Assembly: GCA_030683705.1 (NCBI GenBank)
Contig: JAUXPP010000090.1
Span: 1-64,000, forward strand
Direction of reading: 5' to 3'
From: Polaromonas sp.
GTDB lineage: Bacteria; Pseudomonadota; Gammaproteobacteria; Burkholderiales; Burkholderiaceae_C
Length of the DNA: 64,000 nt
This document shows positions 23,363-62,210 of this stretch, in pieces. The translations under genes were made by a program, and so were the position numbers. A model generated the notes under the pieces. The model was not told where the DNA came from. It did not search any database and saw only the letters and a list, made by a program, of their open reading frames with translations. Position 1 is the first letter of the stretch, and the number at the start of each line of letters is the position of its first letter.

Positions 23363-23368
23363 TGACAG

Positions 23369-23458
23369 CCCTAACGTCTGAGATCACCAGCGCACAACCA
23401 CCGAGCGCGCGCAGCGCGCGGACCATGTTGTGCCTCCGCGTGGATCGAAATGTTATCC
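23369..23458 (-). other. attC site 3 (of cassette 8)
   Basis: CCCTAAC ... GTTATCC boundaries; arms GATCACCAGCGCACAAC and GTTGTGCCTCCGCGTGGATC form a long imperfect stem. Confidence 0.82.
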
Positions 23459-23968: not shown

Positions 23969-23974
23969 AGCGAG

Positions 23975-24061
23975 GGATAACGCCCGAGGCTACCGGCAGG
24001 CAATACCCGCCGCGAAGCGGCATCCTGATGTTGCCTGTCCGCCTGGGCCGACCAGTTAAAG
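23975..24061 (-). other. attC site 4 (of cassette 7)
   Basis: GGATAAC ... GTTAAAG boundaries; arms CCGGCAGGCAA and TTGCCTGTCCG. The centre GCCGCGAAGCGGCATCCTG is shared with attC5. Confidence 0.82.
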
Positions 24062-24460: not shown

Positions 24461-24463
24461 GCG

Positions 24464-24550
24464 CTTTAACGTCGAAGCTGCCCGGCACGCAGCAAGAGCC
24501 GCGAAGCGGCATCCTGCAGTTGCGTGTCCGTGCCGAGCGACCAGTTAGGC
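24464..24550 (-). other. attC site 5 (of cassette 6)
   Basis: CTTTAAC ... GTTAGGC boundaries; arms CCCGGCACGCAGCAA and GTTGCGTGTCCGTGCC. Centre shared with attC4. Confidence 0.82.
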
Positions 24551-24583
24551 CGCTTGAGATAGAGCGCCGCACACGGATACATG

Positions 24584-24973
24584 CTATTTCCCAGCCTTTG
24601 AGCAAATGACGAAATGAACCGTTGCAGGGTGTGTGGCAGGAATAAGAGGAGCAAAGACAATGGCGGGCATTCGCCGATCATAGAGCGTAGCGCCTGCCTC
24701 GTTGAGCAGCAGCACGTGAGCGTTTGCACGCGTGTTGTTGCTGCAATCCGTGTAAATCAATGACTGGGAAGTTCGGTATGTCACGCCTTGGAATACTTGG
24801 TCTTGCTCATAAGTCCAACGCTGCCAACCATAGACAACTTGGTCAAGCTTTCGCACTGAATCCTTGTCGATAGTGATTTTCAAACCAGGTAGCGTTACCA
24901 GCTCTTCCCAAGCCTCGGCAAGCGCAAGATTGCTGAGCGAACTCAAGAAGAACAGGACGGAAAGGAGTTTCAT
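24584..24973 (-). CDS. Cassette 6: secreted surface-adhesin-E-like protein
   Basis: 129 residues with a clear signal peptide (KLLSVLFFLSSLSNLALA|EA). The mature part, with ITIDKDSVRKLDQVVYGWQRW, TYRTSQSLIYTDCSNN and a final VICSKAGK, resembles the surface-adhesin protein E family (small periplasmic or surface domain with a Cys pair). ATG at 24973, GGAG six to eight bases upstream. Binding activity is not predictable. Confidence 0.65.
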   Translation of the reverse strand: MKLLSVLFFLSSLSNLALAEAWEELVTLPGLKITIDKDSVRKLDQVVYGWQRWTYEQDQVFQGVTYRTSQSLIYTDCSNNTRANAHVLLLNEAGATLYDRRMPAIVFAPLIPATHPATVHFVICSKAGK

Positions 24974-24983
24974 GTGGTAGCAG

Positions 24984-25073
24984 CCTTAACGTAGAAATGA
25001 TCGGCGCCCAACCCAAAGTGCGAACTCAGCGAGCGGACGCTTTTGGGCGTCCGAGTCGATTGCCATGTTATCC
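24984..25073 (-). other. attC site 6 (of cassette 5)
   Basis: CCTTAAC ... GTTATCC boundaries, 90 bp; central pair GCGGACGC / GGGCGTCCG. Confidence 0.8.
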
Positions 25074-25361
25074 ATGGCTCCCTCCCGAGTACTTGGACTC
25101 CAACTCTCGCAACTCCCGGTACTCCTTAAGCCGGAAGAAAGCACCTACCGCTAGGGCAACCACTGCCGCTACGACGAAGACGAGGAAACCTATCCAATTG
25201 TCCTCAACCATCCAGAACGTTCGATAAGTGTCGAGGCCGCGCCCCGCGCGGACTTCGTTCACGGCAATGAAGATCATTGCAGCGAGGCCGCCAAACGACG
25301 CGACGCCCCCAACCCAAAGGCCGATGCGTATAAGACGCGACGGTTGCCTGTGATCTGTCAT
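25068..25361 (-). CDS. Cassette 5: small two-helix membrane protein
   Basis: 97 residues from the ATG at 25361. Two hydrophobic helices (IGLWVGGVASFGGLAAMIFIAV and WIGFLVFVVAAVVALAVGAFF) and a basic/acidic tail (RLKEYRELRELESKY). No recognised family. Confidence 0.6.
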   Translation of the reverse strand: MTDHRQPSRLIRIGLWVGGVASFGGLAAMIFIAVNEVRAGRGLDTYRTFWMVEDNWIGFLVFVVAAVVALAVGAFFRLKEYRELRELESKYSGGSHG

Positions 25362-25451
25362 GGATAACGTTGACGGTAACCGGCGCACACGAAGCGCGAG
25401 AGCAACGCGCACGGACGCAACAGTGCGTCCGCGTTGACCAACCTGTTAGAC
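25362..25451 (-). other. attC site 7 (of cassette 4)
   Basis: GGATAAC ... GTTAGAC boundaries; arms GGTAACCGGCGC and GCGTTGACC, with central GCGCACGGACGC / GTGCGTCCGCGT. Confidence 0.82.
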
Positions 25452-25454
25452 CGC

Positions 25455-25823
25455 TTAGACGACGATCGGGTCATTGGCGCGCCCACGAAGATGGATTTGC
25501 ATGGATTCAAACTGATCAGAGTCGTCGTGCAATTGCAGCACCAATCCCCCTGCAAAGTGAATTTCGAGGAGTCGGTCGTGCGGCACCGCGTAACTAAGGA
25601 CCTCGATCATGAGCAGGCGTTGAAAGTCCAAGCTTGTCCAATTCTCTTCTTCGTCCCACTCAGCTATTGTGTTACCCCGATCGACGAGCGTGACACGGCT
25701 TTGAACACATATTGTCGTTCCCGACCCGAAGACAAATTGAACGTCCGAGCGCCCAAGGCGAATCTGTTGTACCTCACTGCCAACAATATCTCGCAGGTCT
25801 AGATCCGAAGAGACACGGTACAT
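25455..25823 (-). CDS. Cassette 4: unknown soluble protein (DUF6188-like)
   Basis: 122 residues without signal or membrane segment. The opening DLRDIVGSEVQQIRLGRSDVQFVFGSGTTI resembles small DUF6188-type proteins (conserved 'G..V..I..G...' start), often encoded near polymorphic-toxin immunity genes; the similarity is judged by eye. ATG at 25823. Confidence 0.6.
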   Translation of the reverse strand: MYRVSSDLDLRDIVGSEVQQIRLGRSDVQFVFGSGTTICVQSRVTLVDRGNTIAEWDEEENWTSLDFQRLLMIEVLSYAVPHDRLLEIHFAGGLVLQLHDDSDQFESMQIHLRGRANDPIVV

Positions 25824-25827
25824 AGCG

Positions 25828-25917
25828 GTCTAACGTTGGAGGTAACCGGCGCCCAGCGACGACGAGCCGCGCAGCGGCACACCACGCAGGGCGACCGTGT
25901 TGACTGACCTGTTAGGG
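25828..25917 (-). other. attC site 8 (of cassette 3)
   Basis: GTCTAAC ... GTTAGGG boundaries; arms GGAGGTAACCGGCGCCC and GGGCGACCGTGTTGACTGACC. Confidence 0.82.
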
Positions 25918-25921
25918 CGCA

Positions 25922-26152
25922 TTAGCCGCATACACACCTCACGTCACGCACATTCCGGCGTTGCGTAGAGTCCAAAAACGGGTTCAGAAGACTGGTCTCG
26001 ACACGAAAACCCCTGGTGCCGCATCGGCTACGGCACTGCTCTTCGAAGGACTGCTGTTCGCGACCGTTCGACATAAGGAACAGGAAGGCAGCTCCACCAC
26101 CAGCAAAGGCCAGCGTTGCAACTACTAGCCTGAGGGAGACTCTCGAACTCAT
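25922..26152 (-). CDS. Cassette 3, second ORF: small single-helix secreted or anchored protein
   Basis: 76 residues with an N-terminal hydrophobic helix (LVVATLAFAGGGAAFLFLM) and four cysteines in the exposed part (CRSRC, CVC). Start ATG overlaps the stop of the upstream cassette ORF (ATGA), so the two are probably cotranslated. Function unknown. Confidence 0.55.
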   Translation of the reverse strand: MSSRVSLRLVVATLAFAGGGAAFLFLMSNGREQQSFEEQCRSRCGTRGFRVETSLLNPFLDSTQRRNVRDVRCVCG

Positions 26153-26343
26153 TTGCTGCCTTTACGAAAAATGAGCTCCCAAGCGAGCCCCGCCGCCGCA
26201 GAAACAACGATAAGTAAGGCACCTACCGTGGTCGTATCCGTCCCCACCGGCGCGAGCCAATGAAACGCTGCAGCCAGCGCGATGCCTCCAAGGGCTCCAA
26301 TGAGGATGCCCGGCGACGCTAAGAGAGAAAAGAGCGTTTCCAC
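26149..26343 (-). CDS. Cassette 3, first ORF: small membrane protein
   Basis: 64 residues from a GTG at 26343. Two hydrophobic stretches (LLASPGILIGALGGIALAAA and VGALLIVVSAAAGLAWELI) and a basic end (FRKGSK). No recognised family. Overlaps the next ORF by four bases. Confidence 0.5.
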   Translation of the reverse strand: METLFSLLASPGILIGALGGIALAAAFHWLAPVGTDTTTVGALLIVVSAAAGLAWELIFRKGSK

Positions 26344-26349
26344 GGTGCA

Positions 26350-26427
26350 CCCTAACTTTGGAGATGAGCGGAGGCTTTCGGCAAACGAAGTGTGCCGAAA
26401 GCCGTCCGCTCGATTGACTGGTTAGGC
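26350..26427 (-). other. attC site 9 (of cassette 2)
   Basis: CCCTAAC ... GTTAGGC boundaries; arms GAGCGGAGGCTTTCGGC and GCCGAAAGCCGTCCGCTC form a long, nearly perfect stem. Confidence 0.88.
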
Positions 26428-26895
26428 CGCACGTTGTGCATGGCGTGGAGGAAGCTGGTTGTTCTGAAGCACACGTTTTGATTTCGGACCGAAGTAGTTG
26501 TACAGGAGAAGTCCAGTTTCCTCTCGCTCCGTGCCACCATCCGTTACGTACGAGAGCACCCAGCGGTGTGGCCTACTGCCAGCGTAGAAGACCTCCAACG
26601 AACTGTCCGCGCACAACAATGAGCGAACAAACCCAAGACAGTTCTCCGCGGTCGCCTCGGGCGTTTCAGTAACTGGGCCGTATTCGAAAGGTGAGCCGTG
26701 CCAGCCGCCCGCGTACACGTAGAGACCGTAGGTTTCGCATTCAACGCGAACCGAGAAACCTGATTCGCCACACGACGGTACTTCTAAAACGCGCTTGCCA
26801 TCCGCCTCCGGGCCAGACCAGTGATGCGGCACCTGCGGGAACTCACGGAGCCGGGCGCTTGTTAGAGCGAAGAACGCTTCGGGGAGGGGTGGCAT
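26422..26895 (-). CDS. Cassette 2: unknown soluble protein
   Basis: 157 residues, no signal or membrane helix. Begins PPLPEAFFALTSARLREFPQ; contains EYGPVTETPEATAENCLGFVRSLL and RPHRWVLSYVTDGG. I do not recognise the family. ATG at 26895; the stop falls in attC9. Confidence 0.6.
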   Translation of the reverse strand: MPPLPEAFFALTSARLREFPQVPHHWSGPEADGKRVLEVPSCGESGFSVRVECETYGLYVYAGGWHGSPFEYGPVTETPEATAENCLGFVRSLLCADSSLEVFYAGSRPHRWVLSYVTDGGTEREETGLLLYNYFGPKSKRVLQNNQLPPRHAQRAA

Positions 26896-26903
26896 TCCGT
26901 GCG

Positions 26904-26960
26904 GCCTAACGTTTGACTTAAGCGGCGCCGCCTGGCGTCCGCTTGAAGGAAGTGTTAGCT
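26904..26960 (-). other. attC site 10 (of cassette 1)
   Basis: 57 bp: GCCTAAC ... GTTAGCT with inner boxes GACTTAAGCGGCGCC and GCGTCCGCTTGAAG. Close to the classical 59-base element. Confidence 0.9.
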
Positions 26961-26995
26961 CTCAGCGCCCTGCTATTGCTTGTGCGAAACATGAC

Positions 26996-27274
26996 CTATG
27001 ACCTCCCGCGACGAGAACCTGGCTTCCGCTTTGGGCGCTTCGTGCTCCAGAACAGCCACGCAAGGAAAAAGAATGTAGTCCCGATGAGGCCACGAGCCAG
27101 TGGCTCTCCCACGACGGCGGCTAACCCGACGAACACATCGCCGCCACCTCTGTTGCGCAGCCCATTATTGGACGAGAGCTGCTCGAACGACGCTGAAAAC
27201 ATGACCGCGATGCCTGCGAGCACACACAGAGCGACAATAATCCAGCGAAACAGACGGAGAGCAAGTTCGACCAT
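26996..27274 (-). CDS. Cassette 1 (next to attI): small membrane protein
   Basis: 92 residues with two predicted helices (LFRWIIVALCVLAGIAVMF and GLIGTTFFFLAWLFW) and a strongly basic tail (KRPKRKPGSRRGRS). Function unknown. Being first after attI it would be the cassette best placed for expression from a Pc-type promoter, if one exists. Confidence 0.6.
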   Translation of the reverse strand: MVELALRLFRWIIVALCVLAGIAVMFSASFEQLSSNNGLRNRGGGDVFVGLAAVVGEPLARGLIGTTFFFLAWLFWSTKRPKRKPGSRRGRS

Positions 27275-27277
27275 GAG

Positions 27278-27339
27278 AGCTAACGTAATTTAGACCGAAA
27301 AACCTGAGGTTTAACTTGGCGTCTGAGGTTTAACTTGGC
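27278..27339 (-). other. attI-like recombination region
   Basis: A simple core AGCTAAC (27278-27284) marks the junction to cassette 1. Two 17-bp direct repeats, CTGAGGTTTAACTTGGC, lie at 27304-27320 and 27323-27339; on the minus strand each contains GTTAAAC, a perfect GTTRRRY integrase-binding core. Core plus two direct repeats next to intI mirrors the organisation of attI sites. Confidence 0.75.
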
Positions 27340-50290: not shown

Positions 50291-53200
50291 TTATTCGCCC
50301 CGCTCTTTCTCGTCGCTGTCCTTTTTGTTGTTCTGCTTGCCCGGCTTGCGCGGTGACATGTCCAGTTCCACCGAACGGCCGCTCTCCAGTGCGGAACCCG
50401 CCGCCTCCGGTGCGCTCAGGCTGATGTCGGAGCCGCCCTGGCGCGCGAGGTCTGCCCCTGGAACCACCGGCACCGAGCCGCCTTCCACGCCGCTTTCCTG
50501 CACGCCGCCGACGGGAACGACACGGTTGTTCTCGGCGTTGCTGGACACGGTCTGGTTGGTCTGGGGCTTGCCGTTCACGTTGACCAGCCCGCCGCCGGTG
50601 TTGCTGACCTGGCCGAAGCTGCCGCTGACGCTGCCCTTGGGCGCATCCAGCGTGATTTGCCCGGCACTGCCCGATACCTGGGCGTCGTTGACGGCAGCCA
50701 CGGCCACCACGGGCGCCGTCACCTCGGCAACCACGTTGCCGCCCCCCAGCGTCGCGGAACCGGAGGCCGCCACCACCACGTTCATGTCGCCCTGCGAAGT
50801 CGCCACCACGTCCGCGGCCGTGATGGTGGCGACGATGGTCTCGGCCGTTAACGTGGCAGTCTGGGATGCCGTCACCACCACATCCATGGCGCCCTGGGCC
50901 TGGGCCACCACATCGGTGCCGGCGATATTGGCCTGGATGTCGCCGGCGCTGACGACCGCCACGCTGCCCTGGCTGATGGTGGAACCCGTGACGTCGCCGC
51001 CGGCGTTCAGGCTGCTGGCAGCGTTGCTGTCCTGCGCGCGCAGGGTGCGGCTGCTCAGGGTCACATTGCCGAGCGCATCGATTTTGTAGGCACCGACCCA
51101 CAGCGTGCTGGCCAGGCTGAAGGCGTTTGCGCTGACGTCGAAATAACCGAGCGGGCCGGCCGCCGAGCCGCCCGTCGTCATGCGCACGTTGCCGCGCGTG
51201 CCGCCCGTGCCTGCGAGCAGCCGCAGGCCCCGCGCCACACTGCCGGCGTTCTGGACGTCGCCGTTGAGCGCGATGTCGGCGCCGGCGGTGGCCAGCGTGG
51301 TGTCGGCCAGCAGCTTCACCGGCGCATTGAACAGGAAGCCGCCGCTGCCCTCGGCTGTCACCGTGCCGCCTATGCCCGATCCTGCCGCGCCGCTGCCCAG
51401 CGTCAGGCTCTGCAGCCGCGTGTTGTTGAAGGCCAGGTCGCGGCGGGTATTGACGGCGACGTTTTCGGCGAAGCTGGCGTTGGCGACATTCACGGTGTCG
51501 CCGGTGCCTGCCGCATCGACGCCGCGCTGGACGCTGCCGCTGTTCTGGGTGACGTAGACATTGCCGGTGGTCCAGGTGACCAGTCCGCGTCCGCCGGCAT
51601 CAAGCGCGTGTGTCACGCGGTCCTCGATGGCGAAGCCGTCGGCCGCCCCCACAAAGACGGCGCCGCGGGCGTCGACCGAGGTGTTGTCGACCACGATGTC
51701 CTTGCCGGCGTTGTTCCTGAACTGGGTGCCGCTGATGGTGACGGCAGGCTGGCCGCCACTGCCGTTGTTCAGGGTCTCAAAACGGATGCCGGTCTGGCCG
51801 GCACCCTCGATGCTGCCGCCGGTGATCGTGACGCTTTGCAGGCTGGCCGGCAGGCGGGCGTAGTCGCTGCTGTCGCCGGCGATGCCGCGTGTCTTGATCA
51901 CCACTGCCGCGGCTGTAGCGCTGCCTGAACTCGCGCCCGAGTTCCTGACCACCACGTTGTCGAAGTTCAGCGAACCATAGGCGCCATACTTCAGGTTGAC
52001 ATCGATCCCCGCGCCGTACTGGAGCGAGTCGTTGCCGATGTTGCCGGCATTGGTGACGGTGACATTCCTCATCGTGAGGTTGTCGGCTGCTTCAAAGTAG
52101 AAACCCTTGAAGGTCGAATCGTCCACCGTGACGTTTTCGAAAAGCGCGTTTTTGAAGGAAGCCTGGCCGGCGCCTGCGTCGTAGCCGTTGTAAGTCTGGA
52201 ATCCAATCACCCCGCCCATGATGCTGCTGTTGAGCATGCGGAAGTTGTCTGCCTTGACCGTCGTGCCATTGCGCACGCCGTATTTGTTGTTGTTGAAGGC
52301 CACCCGGTCTATCGTCACGTTATGGGATGTGCCCTGCATCTGCACCCCATACAGGGAGTCGTTGATCGACAGGTCCGACAGCGTGACGTCCGACGCATTG
52401 ATGGATACCGCATTGCCGGTGGCGGCCGATGGCGCCTTGATGATGGTCTGCGTGCTGCCCGCGCCGTCCAGTGTCAGCGCCTTGCCGATACTGACATTTT
52501 CGGCGAAGGTGCCTGCGCCGACATTCACCGTGCCGCCCGTGACCACCGCATTGATGCCGCCCTGGACGGTGTTCAGGGGTGTCAATGCGCTGCCCTGTGC
52601 GCTCGACGAGCCGCCGGTGGCCACGTTGACATGGGTGCGGTTGGACGAGGTATAGGCCTGGTCCTGCACCGACCAGCCGGCGTTGGCCGTGCTCAGGTCG
52701 AGCAGGGCCTGCTGCCACGTGAGGGTTGGGGCGGCAGAGATCGGCGTGCTGTTGGCCACAATGGTCGATCCGGCCATGTGCCCGTTCAGGTGCAGGTTCA
52801 GCCCCCACTCATTGCCACGGGTGCCCTGCGTATTGCCGGAGATGGCGATGCCGCTGCCGCCCGTGTACTGGACCGAAATCCCGCTCTTGGTGTTGTCGAT
52901 GCGGTTACCTGTGACGCTGCCGGTATTGCGGCCGTCGATCAGAATGCCGTTGCGCACGTCATGGATGTGGTTGTTGCTGATGGTGAAGCCGGTGATGCCA
53001 TTGCCCACGGCAATACCGCGGCTGATGTTGCTGCCCCAGGCGTAGTTGAGGTAGGCGCTGGTCGCAGGTCCGGCGATCTCCATGCCGGTGACGGTCACGT
53101 TGTTCGCGGTGATGGCAATGCCGTTGACCTCGGTTGCGTCCGGCACCACCAGTTTGGCGCCTTCATGGCCGGTCAGCGTGAGCCCGGCCTTGTTGAGCAC

Positions 53201-55078
53201 CAGTTGCTCCGCATAGCTGCCCGCATGTACATCCACTGCCGCGCCCGCAGAGGCCGCACCGACCGCCGCGCCTATGGACATGGCCTGCGAGCCGCCGCCC
53301 AGCAGGTTGCCGGTGCCGACCTGGAAACCTTGCGTGGCCTGAGCACCGTTCCAGCCCTGGACATAACTCGAGGCCGGGGCGCCGAGGTTCACCGCAAAGT
53401 CAAACGCATTCTGCCGCGAGGCCTGCAGCCAGGTGTACTGGTGGTTGCTGTTGGTGGAGGAGCTGTTGCGCACCGCATGGTCGAAGCCGGCGATATTCAG
53501 CGTGCCGAAGTCGCGGCTGGCCGACTCGTCCTGCAGGTAAACCGGGTTGCGCTCGCCGAAGCTGTTGCTGGCCGCAACCGTGATGTTGCTGACCTGCTGG
53601 TCGTAATACCGGTTGGCCTGGTACAGGGCGAGACCGCCCCATTGGTTGTTGCGGGTGGTGGAATTGCTGATCGTGACATTCGCACTGTCCGTGAGCTGAA
53701 TCCCGGCGCCCGCCGTCGTTCCGGTGTTGTTGCCCACCGGGGCGCCGTCAGCCGTCACCTGGTCAATCAGCGCGCCGTCCACGCCATTGAGGTCCAGTTC
53801 GGCCCGGCCGGAGCCGCGGATGGTGACATTGCGGATCGAAAAATCCTGCAGGCGTGCCGACGGGGCGCCGGAAGGCGGCGCCACCTTGATGCCATAGGAG
53901 CCCGCCACGTTGGCGCTCGGGCCGTACAGCGTGAAATCCTTCAGGGTCACATCATCGGCCGTGACGTGGATACCGTAGTTGGTGACACCCTGCGCGTCGA
54001 TGGTCGTCGCACCCTGCCCCGCGCCGCTCAGGGTCAGGCTCTTGTCGATCTTCAAGGTCGCGGGCTGAACGTAGGTGCCGGCTGCGACCTTGACGGCGCC
54101 TCCTGATCTTGCAATGTTCACGCCATCCTGGATACGCGCTGCACCGGACACGTTCACCGTGTTCGAATGGCCGCTGACCGTCGGTGCCTGCAAGGCTGAC
54201 TTGAGCACCACGGTGTCACCGTTGACCACCATGGCGCTGCTGGCCTGCTGGATGCCCTCGAGGTTGATCACGCCGGACAACAGGTTGGCGGCATCACCCA
54301 CGCCCAGATGCAGGGTTTTGCCGGTCAGGCTGGCGCCTGCGGCATTCGTGACTTCGCTGCCGGTCGCAGCGCCGGGGATCGCAAACTCGTACAGCCCGCT
54401 GTTCAGGGAGAGGGTCGCTGCGGTAGACCCCAGCAGCGCAATGGTGCCGCCGGTGGCGGTGATCACGCCGTGATTGATCACCGACGGGGCCACCAGGGCC
54501 ACCAGGCCGCTGGCACCCGCGGTCGCGGCAATGTTCCCATGGTTGGTGATGACGCCGCCCGCCGCGCCCGTGATCTGCGCGCTGGTGTGGGTGAAGGTGT
54601 TGGCATCGATGGTTCCGGTGGTGGCGATCAGGGCTCCGACGTTCACGCTGGAGCCCTGGTTGAACAACACCCCGTGCGGGTTCATCAGCATCACCATGCC
54701 GTCTGCCGACAGCGCACCGGATATTTGCGAGGCGTTGGTGGCGGCGCTGACGCGGTTCAGCACCGCCCCGTTTGCCGGCTGCGCGAAATGAACCGCCTTG
54801 CCGGCGTCGATATGGAACGAGGACCAGTCGATCACGGCCCGCTCGGTGGTCTGGGTGATGGTGAGCTGGTCGCCGCTGACCGAGCCGCTGGCCGAACCCG
54901 CTGCCACCGCCCCGTTCAGCGGCAAGCCGGCCGCGCCGCCGGCATTGATCGGGTTGGCCCAGCCGGCCGGCACAAACGCCAGTGCGAGCGCCGCCGGCAA
55001 GGCCTTCATCACGAAGAAGCGGGGGCGGCTGTGTAGTCGGCAGGATCGGGGACCGGGGATGTGAAGCTCAGTTCTCAT
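50291..55078 (-). CDS. TpsA-type two-partner secretion exoprotein (filamentous haemagglutinin family)
   Basis: 1,595 residues from the ATG at 55078 (GAGGTG seven bases upstream). An extended N-terminus precedes a signal sequence (MKALPAALALAFVPAGWA). The haemagglutination-activity (TPS) domain follows at ~45-160, with MVMLMNPHGVLFNQGSSVNVGALIATT. The rest is mainly right-handed parallel beta-helix repeats, several with IDG/N-x-I-type turns like those of pectate-lyase folds (ITGFTISNNHIHDVRNGILIDG). The C-terminus is Lys/Asp/Glu rich (SPRKPGKQNNKKDSDEKERGE) with no anchor. Secreted by the TpsB encoded 36 bp upstream; likely an adhesin or surface fibre. Confidence 0.9.
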   Translation of the reverse strand: MRTELHIPGPRSCRLHSRPRFFVMKALPAALALAFVPAGWANPINAGGAAGLPLNGAVAAGSASGSVSGDQLTITQTTERAVIDWSSFHIDAGKAVHFAQPANGAVLNRVSAATNASQISGALSADGMVMLMNPHGVLFNQGSSVNVGALIATTGTIDANTFTHTSAQITGAAGGVITNHGNIAATAGASGLVALVAPSVINHGVITATGGTIALLGSTAATLSLNSGLYEFAIPGAATGSEVTNAAGASLTGKTLHLGVGDAANLLSGVINLEGIQQASSAMVVNGDTVVLKSALQAPTVSGHSNTVNVSGAARIQDGVNIARSGGAVKVAAGTYVQPATLKIDKSLTLSGAGQGATTIDAQGVTNYGIHVTADDVTLKDFTLYGPSANVAGSYGIKVAPPSGAPSARLQDFSIRNVTIRGSGRAELDLNGVDGALIDQVTADGAPVGNNTGTTAGAGIQLTDSANVTISNSTTRNNQWGGLALYQANRYYDQQVSNITVAASNSFGERNPVYLQDESASRDFGTLNIAGFDHAVRNSSSTNSNHQYTWLQASRQNAFDFAVNLGAPASSYVQGWNGAQATQGFQVGTGNLLGGGSQAMSIGAAVGAASAGAAVDVHAGSYAEQLVLNKAGLTLTGHEGAKLVVPDATEVNGIAITANNVTVTGMEIAGPATSAYLNYAWGSNISRGIAVGNGITGFTISNNHIHDVRNGILIDGRNTGSVTGNRIDNTKSGISVQYTGGSGIAISGNTQGTRGNEWGLNLHLNGHMAGSTIVANSTPISAAPTLTWQQALLDLSTANAGWSVQDQAYTSSNRTHVNVATGGSSSAQGSALTPLNTVQGGINAVVTGGTVNVGAGTFAENVSIGKALTLDGAGSTQTIIKAPSAATGNAVSINASDVTLSDLSINDSLYGVQMQGTSHNVTIDRVAFNNNKYGVRNGTTVKADNFRMLNSSIMGGVIGFQTYNGYDAGAGQASFKNALFENVTVDDSTFKGFYFEAADNLTMRNVTVTNAGNIGNDSLQYGAGIDVNLKYGAYGSLNFDNVVVRNSGASSGSATAAAVVIKTRGIAGDSSDYARLPASLQSVTITGGSIEGAGQTGIRFETLNNGSGGQPAVTISGTQFRNNAGKDIVVDNTSVDARGAVFVGAADGFAIEDRVTHALDAGGRGLVTWTTGNVYVTQNSGSVQRGVDAAGTGDTVNVANASFAENVAVNTRRDLAFNNTRLQSLTLGSGAAGSGIGGTVTAEGSGGFLFNAPVKLLADTTLATAGADIALNGDVQNAGSVARGLRLLAGTGGTRGNVRMTTGGSAAGPLGYFDVSANAFSLASTLWVGAYKIDALGNVTLSSRTLRAQDSNAASSLNAGGDVTGSTISQGSVAVVSAGDIQANIAGTDVVAQAQGAMDVVVTASQTATLTAETIVATITAADVVATSQGDMNVVVAASGSATLGGGNVVAEVTAPVVAVAAVNDAQVSGSAGQITLDAPKGSVSGSFGQVSNTGGGLVNVNGKPQTNQTVSSNAENNRVVPVGGVQESGVEGGSVPVVPGADLARQGGSDISLSAPEAAGSALESGRSVELDMSPRKPGKQNNKKDSDEKERGE

Positions 55079-55114
55079 GGGGCACCTCAATTCGTGGCGG
55101 CTGACAAGGGAGGC

Positions 55115-56833
55115 TCAGAAACGCAGCATCAGGGACCCGGACAAGCGGACGTCCTTGTGGCTGCTGCGTTCGCTGGCGACAGTTTTGGTCAGCGGCAACG
55201 CGGCTTCCACGCTGGCTGACACGTTGTTCTGCAGGAACAGGCGGACACCGACGCCCGCCGATGCCAGGCTCTGGCTGGCCGGAGTACCGGCAGCGAGTGA
55301 ACCCACCCGCCGCACCTTGCCGAGGTCATAAAAGCCAAAGGTCTGGTAAGAACGCAAGCCCGGCACGTCGAGCACGCCGGCATAACGCGGCTCGATACGC
55401 ACCGCCAGCGCGCGTTCACCCACCAGCTCTGCGGGCTCGTAAGCGCGGCCATACCGCCGGCCGCCGAGCGCGTACTGTTCCGATGACAGCAGCGGGGTGT
55501 TGGCCCACTGGCCGGCGATGCCGAAAGCCAGGCTGGTACTGGCGCTGAAAAACTGGACCCGTTCATAGTCGAAGCCCAGCTTGCTGAACACGCCCTTGGC
55601 GCCGGCCCGGCTTTTCAACAGGTCGCCTTCGTCGGTGCCACCCAGGCCCTGGCTGAAGTCCAGCTCCAGCACGTTTTGCCCGTCCAGGCGGTCCAGCACG
55701 CGCCAGCTCAGTCCCAGCCGCAGCGCGCGAATCCGGTCGTCGATCACCCGGGAACCCAGAATGTCGGTACGGATATCCGCATGGTCATACGTGACACGCG
55801 CAACCAGGCTTTCATTGCGCGAGCGCAGCAGCGGGTAACTCGCCGAGATGGACGTGGTGTCGGCCGCGCCCCTGACATCGAAAGGCCTGAGCACATCGCC
55901 GGGCTGCGTCCGGGCGCGCGAGACCGCCACCGACAGCTTGAGGCCTTCGGTATTGACCACCTGGCTGTAGGCCAGCTGCCCATAGGCCATCTCCCGGTCG
56001 CCGGTCCCCACGGCAATCGCCCGCCACTGGTCGTTCACGCCGAGCAACTGGTTGCCCGTCACCCCGGCAAGGATTTGACCGGGCCCCAGGTACTTCGAAC
56101 CGTAGTTGTCGACAGACGCGAAGCCCTCCACGCTTTTGATGCTGGCCACCAGCGTGAGGTCGGCCGCGCCCTGGGCCCGGGATGGCGAAAGAATGCTGCG
56201 CAGTTCAAGGCCCGGGAAGTCATTGGCGATCAGCAGGTAACGCTCCAGCACAAGCGCATCCAGCGGACGCGATGCCTTGATCTGTTCTCCGATGCGGGCC
56301 AGCGACTCACGGACCGTCGCACTGACGCCCTCACCGGCCTGCACCGTCACGGCGTTGATGTAGCCCTCCACCACCTGCAGCGTCAGGGTGCCTTCCGCCA
56401 GCGACTGCGGCGGCACCAGCACCAGCGACAGGATGTAACCCGCATTGCGGTACATCGCCGTGAGTTCCGACGCCAGCTGAAGAATATCGTTGCCGCCGAT
56501 TTCGCGTCCGGTGTAGGCCTCGGTGCGCGACTGCAGCACGGCCGCAGGCAGCACGCTGGAGCCTTCAACCCGGATGCGCTGCAGCGTCACACGGACGGTC
56601 CTGAACGAGTCGGGCAAGCCCGGGGGCCGCTGCGTGTCAAGCGCCGGCGGGGCCGCGTCCGTATCGGGCGCGGTCTGAATGTCGAAACGTTCGCGCAATC
56701 GGCCCGGGTCGGTGGCGGGCGGTACGGCCTGCGCCAGCGCCATCAGGCCCAGACTCCAGCCCGCCAGGCCGATCAGCCCGGCCCGCACCGCGCTCAGCGT
56801 CCGCGAACCCCTTCTTCCACCCATCTGCGTCAT
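55115..56833 (-). CDS. TpsB-type transporter (ShlB/FhaC/HecB family)
   Basis: 572-residue outer-membrane pore for the downstream TpsA. After a signal region (LIGLAGWSLGLMALAQA), two POTRA-like domains (TVRVTLQRIRVEGSSVLP..., LTLQVVEGYINAVTVQAG) precede a 16-stranded barrel. The L6 'VRGY'-type segment is in the barrel region (QYALGGRRYGRAYEPAELVGERA). The protein ends with ...GSLMLRF, a C-terminal Phe. ATG at 56833; ATG 56824 is an alternative. Confidence 0.93.
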   Translation of the reverse strand: MTQMGGRRGSRTLSAVRAGLIGLAGWSLGLMALAQAVPPATDPGRLRERFDIQTAPDTDAAPPALDTQRPPGLPDSFRTVRVTLQRIRVEGSSVLPAAVLQSRTEAYTGREIGGNDILQLASELTAMYRNAGYILSLVLVPPQSLAEGTLTLQVVEGYINAVTVQAGEGVSATVRESLARIGEQIKASRPLDALVLERYLLIANDFPGLELRSILSPSRAQGAADLTLVASIKSVEGFASVDNYGSKYLGPGQILAGVTGNQLLGVNDQWRAIAVGTGDREMAYGQLAYSQVVNTEGLKLSVAVSRARTQPGDVLRPFDVRGAADTTSISASYPLLRSRNESLVARVTYDHADIRTDILGSRVIDDRIRALRLGLSWRVLDRLDGQNVLELDFSQGLGGTDEGDLLKSRAGAKGVFSKLGFDYERVQFFSASTSLAFGIAGQWANTPLLSSEQYALGGRRYGRAYEPAELVGERALAVRIEPRYAGVLDVPGLRSYQTFGFYDLGKVRRVGSLAAGTPASQSLASAGVGVRLFLQNNVSASVEAALPLTKTVASERSSHKDVRLSGSLMLRF

Positions 56834-57429: not shown

Positions 57430-57933
57430 ATGGCAAAACTCAACGTGAATGGCAGCGTGAGGGAGTTCGAGGCGGAGGGGGACACCCCGCTGCTCTGGGT
57501 GATCCGGGAGCAGCTCGGGCTGACCGGCACCAAATACGGTTGCGGCATCGCCCAATGCGGCGCCTGTGCCGTGCATATCGACGGCGTGGTCACACGCAGT
57601 TGCGTGCGGCCGGTTTCCACCGTCAACGCCAACCAGAAAATCGTGACCATCGAGGGCCTGTCGCGCGACGGGTCCCACCCGGTGCAGAAAGCCTGGGCCG
57701 CGCTGGATGTACCGCAGTGCGGCTACTGCCAGTGCGGCATGGTGATGACGGCAGTGGCGCTGCTCAGGACCACACCGAATCCCAGCGATGCCGACATCGA
57801 CCAGGCCATGACCAACATCTGCCGCTGCGGCACCTACAACCGCGTCCGTGCCGCCATCAAGGTGGTGGCGGCCGGTGGCAACACCAAAAGTGCCGCGCTG
57901 GCGATCCAGCACACCGACGGGAGCACGACATGA
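57430..57933 (+). CDS. 2Fe-2S subunit of a xanthine-oxidase-family molybdenum hydroxylase
   Basis: 167 residues. N-terminal plant-type 2Fe-2S cluster (Cys38, Cys43, Cys46, Cys58) and C-terminal four-helix cluster (Cys97, Cys100, Cys131, Cys133, in CGYCQCGM and CRCGTY), the small subunit layout of IorA/CoxS-type enzymes. Its stop overlaps the start of the large subunit (ATGA). It carries no export signal and would ride with the Tat-exported large subunit. Confidence 0.93.
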   Translation: MAKLNVNGSVREFEAEGDTPLLWVIREQLGLTGTKYGCGIAQCGACAVHIDGVVTRSCVRPVSTVNANQKIVTIEGLSRDGSHPVQKAWAALDVPQCGYCQCGMVMTAVALLRTTPNPSDADIDQAMTNICRCGTYNRVRAAIKVVAAGGNTKSAALAIQHTDGSTT

Positions 57934-60149
57934 GCCAGCACACGATTGCCTCTTCGGACACGTCTGCTTCCGGCACGGGCACACTGAGCCGCCGGGGTTT
58001 CCTCGGTGCCTCTGCCGCCTCCGGCCTGGTCGTGGCCTTCCACATTCCCCTGGCCAGCTACGCGCAGGCGCAAGCCAGTAACGCGCCAGAAGTCAACGCA
58101 TGGGTGGTGGTCAAGCCCGATGACACGGTGATCATCCGCATCGCGCGCTCCGAGATGGGCCAGGGCAGCCTGACCGGGCTGGCGCAGCTGGTCGCGGAGG
58201 AGCTCGAATGCAACTGGGCCCGGGTCACGACCGAGTACCCGACACCCGGCCAGAACCTCGCGCGTAATCGCGCCTGGGGCAATTTCTCGACCGGTGGCAG
58301 CCGCGGCATCCGCGAATCGCACGACTATGTGCGCAAGGGGGGTGCCACGGCACGCATGATGCTGGTGCAGGCAGCGGCCGACGAATGGAAGGTGCCGGTT
58401 TCCGAATGCCGTGCGGCCAACAGCGTGATCACCCACACGCCCAGCGGCCGCAGCACGACCTACGGCAAAGTCGCCATCGCGGCCGGCAAACTCACAGCGC
58501 CGGCCCAGGTCACGCTGAAGGACCCCAAAGACTGGAAAATTGTCGGCAAGCGGCTGGCCCGGCTGGACACCATCGACAAGGTCACCGGCCGCCAGATTTA
58601 TGGGGCCGACCTGACCATGCCGGGCATGCTGAATGCAGCGATCAGGGACTGCCCGGTGTTTGGCGGCAAGCTCAAAAGCTTCAATGCCGCAGCGATTGAA
58701 AAACGTCCCGGCGTCAAGAAAGTCGTGCGTGTCGGTGACAGCGCCGTGGCGGTGGTGGCAGATACCTGGTGGCGCGCCAAGACCGCCCTCGATGCCCTGC
58801 CCATTGAATGGGACTACGGGCCGAACGTCGCCAACTCGAGCGCCAGCGTGGCGCAGATGCTCAAGGCCGGACTGGATGCGCCCGATGCCGTGGTCGGCAA
58901 CCAGAACGGCGATGCCAAAGCGGCGCTGGCCTCGGCCGTGCGCCGCATCGAGGCCGTTTACGCCTACCCGCACCAGAACCACGCCACCATGGAACCCATG
59001 AACGCCACCGCGCGCTGGACGCCCGAGCGTTGCGAGGTCTGGACGCCCACACAGAATGGCGAAGCCGCGCTGGCCGCCACCTCGGAAGCCGCCGGCCTGC
59101 CCGCCGCCAGGTGCGAGGTCTACAAGATCCACCTGGGCGGCGGTTTCGGCCGGCGCGGCGCGGTGCACGACTGGGTACGCCAGGCGGTGGACATCGCCAA
59201 ACAGATGCCGGGCGTGCCGGTCAAGCTGCTGTGGTCGCGCGAGGAAGACATGCTGCATGGCCTTTATCACCCTGTCACGCAGTGCAAGCTGCAGGCCGGG
59301 CTGGACGCGCAGGGCAACATCACGGCGCTGCACATGCGCATCTCCGGCCAGTCCATCCTCGCCGGCGTGTTTCCGCAAAACATCCGCAACGGGCTGGACC
59401 CGGTGGTGTTCCAGGGCCTGAATGCCCCCGGACCGGAAGCCTCCATCGGCTACAGCTTCCCCAACCTGCTGATCGACCACGCGATGCGCAACCCGAGCGT
59501 GCCACCCGGGTTCTGGCGCGGCGTGAACCTGAACCAGAACGCGATTTACCTCGAGTGTTTTCTCGACGAAATCGCCGCCGCGACGAAGCAGGACCCGCTG
59601 GCGCTGCGGCGCAAGCTGATGGCCAGCCATCCCAAACACCTGGCGGTGTTGAACGCGGTGGCCGAACGCGTGCGCTGGGAGGTGCCGCCGCCGGACGTTC
59701 GCGGCCAGAAGGTCTACCGCGGCCTGGCGCAGACCATGGGTTTCGGCAGTTATGTCGCCGCCTGCGCCGAGGTGTCTGTCGACAAGGACGGTGCACTGAA
59801 GATCCACCGCATCGTTGCGGCCACCGATCCCGGTTATGCCGTGAACCCGCAACAGATCGAGGCGCAGGTCGAGGGCTCTTTCGCCTACGGCCTGTCGGCC
59901 GCGCTGTTCGGCGAATGCACGCAAAAGGACGGCCGCATGGAGCAGGACAACTTCAGCACCTACGCGGTGGTGCAGATGCAGCACATGCCGGCTGTGGAAA
60001 CCATCATCGTGCCTTCGGGCGGCTTCTGGGGCGGCGTGGGCGAACCGACGATTGCGGTGGCCGCGCCGGCCGTGCTCAACGCCGTCTTCGCGGCGACCGG
60101 CAAACGCATCCGCGAACTGCCGCTGAAGAACCACAGCCTCAAGGCATGA
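57930..60149 (+). CDS. Molybdopterin-binding large subunit (isoquinoline-oxidoreductase/aldehyde-dehydrogenase family)
   Basis: 739 residues with a twin-arginine signal (LSRRGFLGASAASGLVVAFH, cleavage near SYAQA). The family hallmarks HLGGGFGRRGAVHD and SGGFWGGVGEPTIAV are intact; Glu705 is the likely catalytic Glu. IorB-type proteins hydroxylate aromatic or aldehyde carbons, with electrons passing through the 2Fe-2S subunit to a cytochrome. Here the next gene, overlapping by four bases, is a SoxX cytochrome, suggesting that this enzyme feeds or replaces a step of sulfur oxidation. Substrate unknown. Confidence 0.9.
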   Translation: MSQHTIASSDTSASGTGTLSRRGFLGASAASGLVVAFHIPLASYAQAQASNAPEVNAWVVVKPDDTVIIRIARSEMGQGSLTGLAQLVAEELECNWARVTTEYPTPGQNLARNRAWGNFSTGGSRGIRESHDYVRKGGATARMMLVQAAADEWKVPVSECRAANSVITHTPSGRSTTYGKVAIAAGKLTAPAQVTLKDPKDWKIVGKRLARLDTIDKVTGRQIYGADLTMPGMLNAAIRDCPVFGGKLKSFNAAAIEKRPGVKKVVRVGDSAVAVVADTWWRAKTALDALPIEWDYGPNVANSSASVAQMLKAGLDAPDAVVGNQNGDAKAALASAVRRIEAVYAYPHQNHATMEPMNATARWTPERCEVWTPTQNGEAALAATSEAAGLPAARCEVYKIHLGGGFGRRGAVHDWVRQAVDIAKQMPGVPVKLLWSREEDMLHGLYHPVTQCKLQAGLDAQGNITALHMRISGQSILAGVFPQNIRNGLDPVVFQGLNAPGPEASIGYSFPNLLIDHAMRNPSVPPGFWRGVNLNQNAIYLECFLDEIAAATKQDPLALRRKLMASHPKHLAVLNAVAERVRWEVPPPDVRGQKVYRGLAQTMGFGSYVAACAEVSVDKDGALKIHRIVAATDPGYAVNPQQIEAQVEGSFAYGLSAALFGECTQKDGRMEQDNFSTYAVVQMQHMPAVETIIVPSGGFWGGVGEPTIAVAAPAVLNAVFAATGKRIRELPLKNHSLKA

Positions 60150-60607
60150 CGATACGGGCAGGCGCGTCGGCACTGGCGCTGGCTGCTGCGATGCTGCCCG
60201 CCATATCCCCGGCCCAGCAAGCGGCCGGCCAGCAGGCTTTCCGTGTCGCGGGCGACGCCATCCCCGACTCGCTGACCGGCGTACCCGGTGACGCCGTACG
60301 CGGCCGCGCGATAGTCGCAAGCCGGCAAACCGGCCTGTGCCTCTTGTGCCATGCCGGGCCGCTCCCCGAAGAACGTTTCCAGGGCAACCTGGCGCCGGAT
60401 CTGGCCGGTGCCGGCTCGCGCTGGAGCGAAGGCCAGTTGCGTCTGCGCGTGGTCGATGCGAGGCGCCTGAATCCGCAAACCCTCATGCCGGCTTATTACC
60501 AGGTCGGGGGCCTGGAGCGCGTGGGCGCCGCCTGGCAAGGCCAGCCGGTGCTGGCAGCGCAGCAGATCGAAGACGTGGTCGCCTTTCTGCGCACGCTGCG
60601 TGATTGA
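60146..60607 (+). CDS. soxX: SoxX, c-type cytochrome (second sox cluster)
   Basis: 153 residues with a signal peptide (cleavage near ISPAQQ). Haem motif CLLCH at residues 65-69, axial Met candidate Met114 in NPQTLMPAYY, and the SoxX-typical RFQGNLAPDLAGAGSRW. This is the short soluble SoxX type, unlike the lipoprotein form in the first cluster. Start overlaps the molybdoenzyme stop (ATGA). Confidence 0.9.
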   Translation: MTIRAGASALALAAAMLPAISPAQQAAGQQAFRVAGDAIPDSLTGVPGDAVRGRAIVASRQTGLCLLCHAGPLPEERFQGNLAPDLAGAGSRWSEGQLRLRVVDARRLNPQTLMPAYYQVGGLERVGAAWQGQPVLAAQQIEDVVAFLRTLRD

Positions 60608-60616
60608 GCACAGACC

Positions 60617-61102
60617 ATGCGCCGTCTCCCACCCTCCCCCGTGACTTCGCCCGACCTCAGCCGGCGCCGTGTGCTGCAGGGGGCTGCGGCGCTGGGCGCC
60701 TGGGTACAGATCGCACCGGCAAGCGCAAGCAGCGATGAACTGACGGCGGCGGTGGCCGGCTACACCGGCGGCGCGCCGGTGCAGCGCGGCAAGGTCAGGC
60801 TGGACATCGCCGAACTGGTGGACAACGGCAATGTGGTCCCGCTGAGCGTGACGGTGGACAGCCCGATGACGGCCAGCGACCACGTCAGGGCGATTGCCAT
60901 CTTCAACGAAAAGAATCCGCAGCGCGAGGTGGTCAAGTTCACCCTCGGCCCGCGCGCCGGCAAGGCCAGCGTCAGCACACGAATTCGCCTCGCGACCTCG
61001 CAGCAACTGGTGGCGGTCGCGCATTTGAGCGATGGCAGTTATTGGTCGCACACGGTTAACGTGATCGTCACACTGGCCGCCTGCATCGAAGGTGACACCT
61101 GA
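60617..61102 (+). CDS. soxY: SoxY-like sulfur carrier with atypical C-terminus (second cluster)
   Basis: 161 residues with a twin-arginine signal (LSRRRVLQGAAALGAWV). The Ig-like SoxY core is recognisable (DIAELVDNGNVVPLSVTVDSPM, DHVRAIAIFNEKNP). Instead of the canonical GGCGG the protein ends AACIEGDT: the carrier-type cysteine (Cys156) is there but the flexible Gly arm is not. Its stop overlaps the soxZ start by one base. Confidence 0.85.
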   Translation: MRRLPPSPVTSPDLSRRRVLQGAAALGAWVQIAPASASSDELTAAVAGYTGGAPVQRGKVRLDIAELVDNGNVVPLSVTVDSPMTASDHVRAIAIFNEKNPQREVVKFTLGPRAGKASVSTRIRLATSQQLVAVAHLSDGSYWSHTVNVIVTLAACIEGDT

Positions 61103-61425
61103 TGGCTCGCACCCTCATCAATGCGCCATCTACCGCCAGACGCGGCGAGGTGATAGCGATCCGCACCACCATTGCCCATCCGATGGAAACCGGCTTCCGG
61201 CCCGGCTCGGATGGCAAAATTTTGCCGCGCGACATCATCCAGCGTGTCAGCTGCCGCTACAACGGCGAACTGGTGTTCAGCGCCGAATTATTTTCCGCCG
61301 TCGCGGCCAACCCCTATCTGGCTTTCCACACCGTAGCCACCGAAAGCGGCACGCTGGTACTGACCTGGGAAGGCGACAAGGGGTTTACGCACAGCGAAAC
61401 CATCACCCTCCGCGTCACCGGATGA
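61102..61425 (+). CDS. soxZ: SoxZ (second cluster)
   Basis: 107 residues, no signal peptide. Matches SoxZ: TLINAPSTARRGEVIAIRTTIAHPMETGFRPGS, then VFSAELFSAVAANPYLAFHTVATESGTLVLTWEGDKG. Start overlaps the soxY-like stop by one base; stop overlaps soxA by four bases (ATGA). Confidence 0.93.
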   Translation: MARTLINAPSTARRGEVIAIRTTIAHPMETGFRPGSDGKILPRDIIQRVSCRYNGELVFSAELFSAVAANPYLAFHTVATESGTLVLTWEGDKGFTHSETITLRVTG

Positions 61426-62210
61426 ACATGCCGGGACGCGCCCTGCTGCTCGCGCTGGCGGTTCTGGTGAGCGCAGCCGGGGCTTGGGCGCAAACCCCGG
61501 CCGGCGCTGATCCGCGCCGCTCAGGCTTTGAGTTCATGGGCCGCTCGACCCAGACCATGCAGAAGGACGACACCCTCAATCCCGCGATGTTGTGGGTCAA
61601 GGAAGGGGAAAGCCTGTGGAGCCAACCCGCCAGCCAGGGCGGCAAGGCCTGCGTGACCTGCCATGCGGCAGCGGCAAGCAGCATGCGCGGTGTCGCGGCG
61701 CGTTACCCGGCCTTCGACGAGCGGCTGTCGCGCCCCCTGACGCTGGGACAACGCATCAACCAGTGCCGCCAGCACCACCAGCAGGCAACGCCGTTTCGCG
61801 CCGAAAGCCAGGAACTGCTCAGCCTGGAGGCATATGTCGCCCTGCAGTCGCGCGGCCTGCCGCTGGCGCCGCCGGCCGATGAACGGCTCGCGCCTTTCCG
61901 GCAACGCGGTGAGCAGCGCTTCATGCAGCGCCTGGGCCAGCTCAACCTGTCGTGTGCGCAATGCCACGACAACCATGCCGGCGGCCGTCTCGGCAGCAGC
62001 CTGATCCCGCAGGCCCACCCACCCGGCTACCCGGTCTACCGCCTGGAGTGGCAGGCACTCGGTTCGCTGCAGCGGCGCTTGCGCGGCTGCATGAGCGGGG
62101 TGCGCGCCGAACCCTTTGCCTACGACGCGCAGGAACTGGTGGAGCTGGAGCTGTATCTGGCGGCGCGCGCCAGGGGCATGCCCCTTGAAGCGCCGGGGGT
62201 CCGACCCTGA
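61422..62210 (+). CDS. soxA: SoxA, dihaem form (second cluster)
   Basis: 262 residues with a signal peptide (cleavage near GAWAQ). Two haem motifs CVTCH (77-81) and CAQCH (178-182), with ligand cysteine candidates Cys115 (INQCRQHH) and Cys223 (RLRGCMSG). This is the dihaem SoxA type, differing from the monohaem SoxA of the first cluster. Last gene of the second cluster; a dispersed repeat follows. Confidence 0.92.
   Translation: MNMPGRALLLALAVLVSAAGAWAQTPAGADPRRSGFEFMGRSTQTMQKDDTLNPAMLWVKEGESLWSQPASQGGKACVTCHAAAASSMRGVAARYPAFDERLSRPLTLGQRINQCRQHHQQATPFRAESQELLSLEAYVALQSRGLPLAPPADERLAPFRQRGEQRFMQRLGQLNLSCAQCHDNHAGGRLGSSLIPQAHPPGYPVYRLEWQALGSLQRRLRGCMSGVRAEPFAYDAQELVELELYLAARARGMPLEAPGVRP

Follow-up and report, generated by a model that had tools for sequence, protein, structure and literature searches.

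A xanthine oxidase-family molybdoenzyme and a variant SoxYZ carrier share an operon in Polaromonas sp. and many relatives, with a possible role independent of SoxB

The window analysed here is a stretch of 64,000 nucleotides from Polaromonas sp. (contig JAUXPP010000090.1, positions 1 to 64,000, assembly GCA_030683705.1). Towards its end, at 57430–62210, six genes are packed on the + strand, as read directly from the open reading frames (ORFs): those of the iron–sulfur (FeS) and molybdenum cofactor-binding (Moco) subunits of an enzyme of the xanthine oxidase (XO) family, followed by soxX, soxY, soxZ and soxA. SoxYZ is the textbook sulfur carrier in thiosulfate oxidation. This operon, and the partnership between its enzyme and its Sox proteins, is the subject of the present work.

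The families of the six products were identified from NCBIfam and Pfam profile scores against the cut-offs of the models. The first gene (57430–57933) encodes a 2Fe-2S small subunit of 167 aa with the domains Fer2 and Fer2_2; an alternative in-frame start lies upstream, at 57340, and the relatives L034 and L036 are called at the identical length of 167 aa. This gene overlaps by 4 bases (57930–57933) with that of the molybdopterin-binding large subunit (57930–60149, 739 aa, MoCoBD_1/2), whose twin-arginine translocation (TAT) signal scores 20.4 bits (cut-off 16.7). Another 4-base overlap (60146–60149) leads to soxX (60146–60607), the gene of a monoheme cytochrome c of 153 aa (TIGR04485, 81 bits, cut-off 61). 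After a gap of 9 bases comes soxY (60617–61102, 161 aa), which shares one base (61102) with soxZ (61102–61425, 107 aa; TIGR04490, 82 bits, cut-off 76), and soxZ in turn overlaps by 4 bases (61422–61425) with soxA (61422–62210), which encodes a diheme cytochrome c of 262 aa (221 bits, cut-off 110). No soxB or soxCD was recognised among these six genes with the NCBIfam and Pfam models. An earlier note on this DNA, written from the letters and ORFs, had described packing by four- and one-base overlaps with a single 9-bp gap, which the ORF coordinates confirm. It also spoke of a genetic fusion; the genes do overlap, but the proteins are not fused. It was right to call the operon a second one, as the window also contains a canonical sox cluster, at a distance of about 46 kb (4104–10819, – strand: soxC, a cytochrome gene in the position of soxD, soxY, soxZ, soxA, soxX and soxB).

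The two SoxY proteins of the window differ at the end that carries the sulfur-binding cysteine. The canonical one (7793–8260) ends in VTLGGCGG, whereas that of the operon ends in VTLAACIEGDT: the C-terminal arm AACIEGDT, encoded with its stop codon at 61076–61102 on the + strand (cysteine codon 61082–61084), stands in place of GGCGG. The operon SoxY scores 95 bits with the model of true SoxY (TIGR04488), below its cut-off of 125, and 212 bits (cut-off 172) with TIGR04487, "SoxY-related AACIE arm protein". It is thus a clear member of the latter family, whose name carries no function and is used in public plasmid records. The note had labelled the gene soxY and missed its variant nature. In an alignment of 88 variant SoxY sequences with arms of the type [AS]-A-C-x-[ED], the cysteine is present in 88/88, the alanine that precedes it in 86/88 and the glutamate or aspartate two residues after it in 86/88. 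Among 35 sequences of the GGC type, glycine occupies positions –2, –1, +1 and +2 in 34, 34, 35 and 31 cases, respectively. The variant arm is thus conserved in an altered form rather than decayed. The arm family is wider than the TIGR04487 cut-off, which is exceeded in only 7 of 61 genomes, and includes SAC, GAC and ASC forms.

The SoxA of the operon, whose closest solved chains are the diheme proteins 1h31_A and 2c1d_A, contains the motif RLRGCMSGVR, the cysteine of which is known to be that of the active site in SoxA. In 80 related sequences this cysteine is found in 79 (the remaining one has a gap) and the two heme motifs in all 80. The loop around it is distinct: glycine stands three residues past the cysteine in 74/80, while glutamine is found there in 24 of 31 canonical sequences. 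Judged by their profile matches, the fold families of the operon proteins are clear.

The association is conserved whether it is looked at from SoxY or from the enzyme. The TIGR04487 profile was run on 61 genomes, that of the window and 60 relatives, and its matches are bimodal, 24 of them reaching at least 115 bits (in 20 genomes) and the remainder at most 65 bits. Twenty-three of these 24 variant soxY genes adjoin a gene of the enzyme, one of them divergently (L052), and the 24th (contig C68 of genome G017) is cut by the end of its contig. On the enzyme side, the best 80 of 591 confirmed relatives were taken, at one genome per species (hereafter the named loci). SoxY is found at 67 of the 80 and, where at least 5 kb of sequence follows, the variant SoxY is found at 63 of 67 loci; 8 of the 13 named loci that have no SoxY have less than 2.4 kb of contig left, and the other five, with more than 4 kb, genuinely lack it. 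The 67 SoxY-bearing loci contain SoxZ in 67 cases, SoxX in 66, SoxA in 65 and the FeS subunit in 64, and all the SoxX, Y, Z and A matches are on the same strand as the enzyme. The FeS subunit is missing at three loci, two of which are at contig starts, L111 being the exception. Neither SoxB nor SoxC turned up at any of the 80 named loci. Together with the enzyme tree described below, the counts obtained from both sides exclude a chance neighbourhood. The two halves of the operon do not occur apart in most genomes, so the idea that the six genes form one functional unit, which the note had put forward, is not refuted and is strongly supported by gene linkage. Within the unit, FeS-Moco-SoxYZ is the firmest core, but across the named loci SoxXA is almost equally constant.

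The phylogenies point in the same direction. In a tree of 122 enzyme sequences, built by a quick method with Shimodaira–Hasegawa-like (SH-aLRT) support only, a single clade of 99 sequences (SH-aLRT 100) contains all 85 enzymes whose genes adjoin that of a variant SoxY, along with 8 sequences at contig ends and 6 unlinked ones. None of the 23 sequences outside this clade is linked to a variant SoxY: 20 are unlinked, 2 are at contig ends and one is beside a GGCGG SoxY. The unlinked members of the clade are scattered in the tree, which reads as loss. In the SoxY tree (124 sequences, 135 columns, with weak inner forks), a single branch separates the 88 variant proteins from the 35 of the GGC type, with support of 98/80 and recovery in 98% of 200 bootstrap trees; the remaining sequence is in neither group. 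Since the enzyme clade and the SoxY branch each split once, the change of the arm and the partnership with the enzyme each look like a single event, after which they spread vertically, and perhaps also laterally, in the alpha- and betaproteobacteria. Plasmid copies are found in Neorhizobium galegae, Methylobacterium sp. NMS14P and Roseomonas marmotae; the Neorhizobium plasmid record has an incomplete gene table, in which the large-subunit gene is not listed.

Several other SoxYZ arrangements were seen in the course of these surveys. In genome G012, the gene of an XO-family enzyme with 40% identity immediately precedes soxYZ-A-B genes of the canonical GGCGG kind (L147, 8132–11390), and in genome G006 an enzyme of the same type is about 11.7 kb from soxY (L148); the pairing at L147 would be a separate and weaker XO/Sox neighbourhood, and is unproven. 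Two SoxY proteins with the arms GGAGGCG and GGAGACG (L156 and L157) are sister to the variant-arm clade in the SoxY tree, and the stretches that encode them contain SoxYZ without SoxB or a molybdoenzyme. On the plasmid pSymA of Sinorhizobium meliloti (CP140933.1; L225, 9007–11448), a SoxY with the tail TNGCL belongs to a set of four genes, with SoxZ, a cytochrome c and an NAD(P)/FAD-dependent oxidoreductase, where the annotation shows neither SoxXA nor a molybdoenzyme. Genome G052, which has no SoxB match, encodes two neighbouring fused SoxY-SoxZ-like proteins (L221, 4904–8538) and a third one that adjoins a SoxA-like gene with a single CxxCH motif (L217, 6999–8587).

The enzyme consists of two subunits, and the operon contains no gene for an FAD subunit. 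Among solved structures, its large subunit is closest to that of an aldehyde dehydrogenase (8gy3_C, 389 bits with a profile of 13 sequences). The glutamate of the GGVGEP motif is retained, and that of GEP is present in 85/85 of the SoxY-linked enzymes. The TAT signal of the large subunit, the 2Fe-2S subunit and the GGGFG and GEP motifs are shared with the two-subunit periplasmic dehydrogenases of the XO family, such as those of the isoquinoline 1-oxidoreductase type, but the operon enzyme differs from them in forming a clade of its own, tied to SoxYZ. The usual targets of this enzyme family are the carbons of aldehydes or heteroaromatic compounds. Two better-known enzymes were considered and rejected. 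The active-site cysteine loop of the aerobic Mo-Cu CO dehydrogenase (YRCSF-type) occurs in 0/85 linked enzymes, and the NCBIfam equivalog models of CO dehydrogenase and of xanthine dehydrogenase proper scored far under their cut-offs. The operon enzyme probably oxidises carbon compounds. At L095, L117, L118, L119, L137 and L139, the linked FeS/Moco genes have further XO-family FeS/Moco genes in their vicinity, which are similar to them to varying degrees; those at L117, L137 and L139 are close tandem copies. At four loci of the Reyranella type (L124, L126, L128 and L130), genes on the same strand upstream of the operon encode MoxR-like and CoxE-like proteins (both named by eye), a redoxin-like protein and an enzyme that uses thiamine pyrophosphate (TPP); they are possibly maturation factors of the enzyme.

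The commonest additional gene encodes a flavocytochrome-c sulfide dehydrogenase (FCSD) flavoprotein, similar to SoxF, in which Pfam recognises FCSD_central and FCSD-flav_bind (one example was scored). It is found at 42 of the 80 named loci, if a 25-bit match in L137 and a gene on the opposite strand in L081 are included; among the 67 loci with SoxY, 38 have it. It is mostly located between the enzyme and soxX, or 3' of soxA as in Duganella, and at 14 loci it is accompanied by the gene of a small cytochrome c; in Roseomonas, an oxidoreductase gene is placed after soxA. Because 29 of the 67 SoxY-bearing loci show no match, soxF is treated here as an optional member of the operon. The other recurrent genes have varying positions: ABC-transporter-like genes at 16 loci and short-chain dehydrogenase/reductase (SDR)-like genes at 12, both named by eye, and two-component genes at 7–8. 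At three Bradyrhizobium loci an SBP56 protein, below the cut-off of methanethiol oxidase (MtoX), is encoded about 3 kb downstream. This was considered as a clue to the substrate and not kept as main evidence, as it concerns 3 of 80 loci and a single genus.

SoxB was searched for in 50 operon-bearing genomes, which represent 50 of the 67 SoxY-bearing loci; their completeness is not reported, and several are metagenome bins. A SoxB match was obtained in 27 of the 50 and none in the other 23, among which 11 also have no match to PF03404 (the dimer domain of the sulfite oxidase family), so that no SoxC or Sor enzyme is recognised there. Hosts in which no SoxB was matched include Duganella radicis, Roseateles depolymerans, Belnapia mucosa and Reyranella soli. 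In the survey of 61 genomes, 16 of the 20 carriers have SoxB (two of these being fragments below the cut-off) and G021, G041, G048 and G052 gave no match. By these host counts, the system can probably stand without SoxB and SoxCD. Given the 23 hosts with no SoxB match, the idea that the operon is a mere appendage of the canonical cluster was rejected as a general rule. The genome of the window itself does have a SoxB outside the operon, which might act on this carrier in trans. The operon resembles classical Sox in having homologues of SoxXA and SoxYZ, the carrier cysteine, the active-site cysteine of SoxA and the heme motifs, and differs from it in having no SoxB or SoxCD, no GGCGG arm, and a molybdoenzyme of a different family.

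This type of operon was described once before in print, and the same pairing recurs in many bacteria. According to Kappler et al. (2013, PMC3797975), Starkeya (Ancylobacter) novella has a second cluster, soxX2Y2Z2A2F2 (Snov_1977-1982), next to a Mo enzyme of the XO family (Snov_1975/1976). Going by this published description, it is alike in its kinds of genes, its lack of SoxB and SoxCD, its XO-family enzyme and the presence of canonical sox genes elsewhere, but it has soxF2, which is missing from the operon of the window. Two Ancylobacter loci of the present survey (L094 and L095) carry the arm TLAACIEDLS. In the same study, quantitative reverse-transcription PCR (qRT-PCR) gave very low expression of the second cluster on glucose, methanol and thiosulfate, and SoxAX2 and SoxYZ2 were undetected in the proteomes, where one SoxF2-like subunit was found at a low level, except on glucose. 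The authors considered that the second set is perhaps without functional significance, or serves under other conditions (PMC3797975). The earlier note saw a possible new route in a hydroxylase that hands electrons to SoxAX or releases a sulfur compound onto SoxY; both of these chemistries are hypothetical, and the route would not be wholly new, as the type of operon had already been reported in S. novella.

Two other systems bear some likeness to this one. The quinoprotein-associated SoxYZ-like carrier (TIGR04557; PP_2677), as outlined in PMC12997753, is likewise a protein of the SoxYZ type that goes with a periplasmic dehydrogenase, but in that system Y and Z are fused and accompanied by an enzyme containing pyrroloquinoline quinone (PQQ), a SoxH-like hydrolase and a rhodanese, whereas the operon has separate SoxY and SoxZ, SoxXA and a molybdoenzyme. 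The SoxY and SoxZ of the operon score 52 and 42 bits with TIGR04557 (cut-off 140) and are not members. In SAR324 bins, SoxYZ lies beside flavocytochrome c with no further sox genes, following the account of these genes in PMC4782131, and is therefore alike in combining SoxYZ and a sulfide dehydrogenase without the rest of the Sox complex; that account treats an isoquinoline oxidoreductase separately, under carbon metabolism, and describes no link to a molybdoenzyme. The four-gene set of S. meliloti pSymA mentioned above is a further SoxYZ unit of reduced size, whose arm differs, and is perhaps comparable to this SAR324 pair. A survey of the SoxY family removed sequences lacking the GGC motif, as its filtering is described in PMC11237559, so the variant arm would be excluded from it. 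No description of the family-wide linkage, of the A-C-x-[ED] motif or of the SoxB-less hosts was found in the open-licence literature searched. A soxY2 deletion in "sox locus II" of Bradyrhizobium japonicum is reported to have no thiosulfate phenotype (in part after PMC5748708). It was not adopted as a mutant of this system and is not used as evidence here, because a soxXYZAB locus of B. pachyrhizi with the arm VGGCGG (L187) fits that description equally well.

The partnership between the enzyme and the Sox carrier is well supported, and the chemistry that we infer for it is as follows. It is a serious possibility, although a little short of an even chance, that the operon encodes a periplasmic pathway in which an organosulfur compound is processed by way of a thiol carrier and independently of SoxB. 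SoxXA would oxidatively couple a substrate bearing a thiol to the arm cysteine of SoxY, as it couples thiosulfate in classical Sox. The molybdoenzyme would hydroxylate the carbon part of the substrate, on the carrier or just before or after, and would in effect occupy the place of SoxCD in the classical cycle. Electrons would leave by way of the 2Fe-2S clusters and the hemes to a periplasmic cytochrome c, and the sulfur remaining on SoxY would be removed as sulfide or sulfane by FCSD (SoxEF) where this is present, or else released, rather than hydrolysed off by SoxB. The substrate is placed on or near SoxYZ because SoxYZ is the constant partner of the enzyme and its cysteine is invariant. The most specific form of this proposal, that the enzyme oxidises the carbon of an organic thiol tethered on the A-C-x-E arm of SoxY after loading by SoxXA and independently of SoxB, is put forward tentatively, as possible yet rather doubtful. 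The very low expression of the Starkeya cluster on thiosulfate (PMC3797975, in its expression data) counts in favour of the proposed pathway as a whole.

A number of observations weigh against the proposed pathway. Five enzymes of the clade with more than 4 kb downstream (L098, L115, L133, L140 and L146) have no Sox genes, and L149 has none either; conversely, a variant soxYZA set in genome G478 (L218) is not accompanied by the enzyme. At L040, L041, L048, L051 and L103 soxX is absent between the enzyme and soxY; a contig edge is close to soxZ at L041 and L051, while L040, L048 and L103 have complete surroundings and consist of FeS-Moco-SoxYZ with neither SoxX nor SoxA. SoxXA may act in trans in these five hosts, since all of them carry SoxA elsewhere. 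L097 is without soxA. The missing SoxF at 29 SoxY-bearing loci counts in the same direction, as does the window itself: there is no FCSD gene in 57430–62210, and an FCSD domain is encoded on another contig of the same genome. Across the 80 loci, no widely recurrent catabolic or transport neighbour names a substrate. The nearest solved relative of the enzyme is an aldehyde dehydrogenase, and we know of no precedent for an activity of the XO family on a carrier-bound thiol. Finally, the detection in S. novella of a SoxF2-like subunit where SoxAX2 and SoxYZ2 were unseen (proteome data of PMC3797975) implies that the parts of the operon need not act together.

The proposed pathway has to be weighed against four other explanations. 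The enzyme and the carrier might work without contact, the hydroxylase destabilising an organosulfur or heteroaromatic compound in the periplasm and SoxXA, SoxYZ and FCSD trapping and oxidising the sulfide or thiol that is shed. The occurrence of the sulfide-oxidising FCSD at 38 of 67 SoxY-bearing loci, the active-site motifs of the enzyme, which are of the normal aldehyde/heterocycle type, and the SBP56 protein near three Bradyrhizobium loci (even if below the methanethiol oxidase cut-off) all fit such scavenging. The consistently non-classical arm and SoxA loop do not, as the trapping of sulfide has no obvious need for them, nor does the lack of a widely recurrent transport or catabolic family, and we consider this explanation unlikely. 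The most instructive rival, by analogy with other systems, is that SoxYZ maintains the enzyme, as a sulfur donor or redox guard for the terminal sulfido ligand of the exported molybdenum centre or for a nearby cysteine. This would account for the smallest unit, FeS-Moco-SoxYZ (L040, L048 and L103), and for the absence of SoxB and SoxC at the 80 loci, and it recalls the SoxYZ-like carrier that consistently occurs with quinoprotein dehydrogenases, for which a role in maturation or redox control is proposed in the account of PMC12997753. However, among relatives of the enzyme followed by 4 kb or more of sequence, 20 outside the clade and 6 inside it do without an adjacent SoxYZ, which means that the cofactor has no general need for SoxYZ, and SoxXA with an intact active-site cysteine would be an elaborate loader for such a task; a maintenance role thus appears improbable.

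It could also be that SoxX and SoxA accept the electrons of the hydroxylase and that SoxYZ is merely carried along. A two-subunit enzyme without FAD must hand its electrons to periplasmic carriers, and SoxXA are cytochromes c, found at 66 (SoxX) and 65 (SoxA) of the 67 SoxY-bearing loci. Against this, the carrier cysteine is invariant (88/88), and SoxYZ occurs without SoxXA at three complete loci while the reverse, FeS-Moco with SoxXA and without SoxYZ, is seen at 0/80, bar L130, which is cut by a contig end. Given the three complete FeS-Moco-SoxYZ loci, the passing of electrons to SoxAX is probably not the sole link, although this pattern is no more than mild evidence against the view of SoxAX as simply an electron sink. 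Moreover, at 26 of the 30 loci with unlinked homologues, no gene on the same strand within 4 kb encodes a heme motif, so a replacement by SoxXA of a missing cytochrome subunit explains little and was set aside. The four exceptions are L147, which adjoins sox genes, L181 and L182, where another XO-family gene has three heme motifs, and L186, where the motif is inside the FeS subunit. Of the explanations considered, that of an electron-transfer module seems to us very improbable. The last one, hardly more credible, is that of a spare or modulating Sox set for thiosulfate oxidation, or of a cluster without functional weight. It agrees with the undetected SoxAX2 and SoxYZ2 proteins and the very low qRT-PCR signals of S. 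novella (from the expression sections of PMC3797975), and with the presence of SoxB in 16 of 20 operon-bearing relatives, two of them as fragments. It fits less well with a SoxY below the true-SoxY cut-off and with the retention of the operon, with an arm of single origin, across the alpha- and betaproteobacteria; in many carriers (23 of 50 have no SoxB match) there is no classical thiosulfate system to modulate.

Two further features of the window lie outside the operon. Just upstream of it, on the – strand (50291–56833), is a two-partner secretion (TPS) pair, composed of a 1599-aa protein with a TPS domain and a beta-helix and of a POTRA transporter of the ShlB/FhaC type. At 22270–27330, also on the – strand, about ten small ORFs of lower GC content are spaced by imperfect repeats of about 80 bases, which start with TAACG and end close to GTTA. 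This region looks like a gene-cassette array of the integron type; no Rfam match and no tandem repeats were found in it, and the window shows no enrichment of the short core pattern taken by itself.

A widespread variant of single origin, present in genomes without SoxB, would give SoxYZ a second role, probably with organic sulfur. If the proposed chemistry is true, the molybdoenzyme would be the carbon-oxidising counterpart of the SoxCD step, in a second and independent use of the Sox carrier cycle. It would also correct annotation: genes of this kind carry names that assign them to thiosulfate oxidation, as they do in Roseomonas marmotae, though some of their hosts have no SoxB match.

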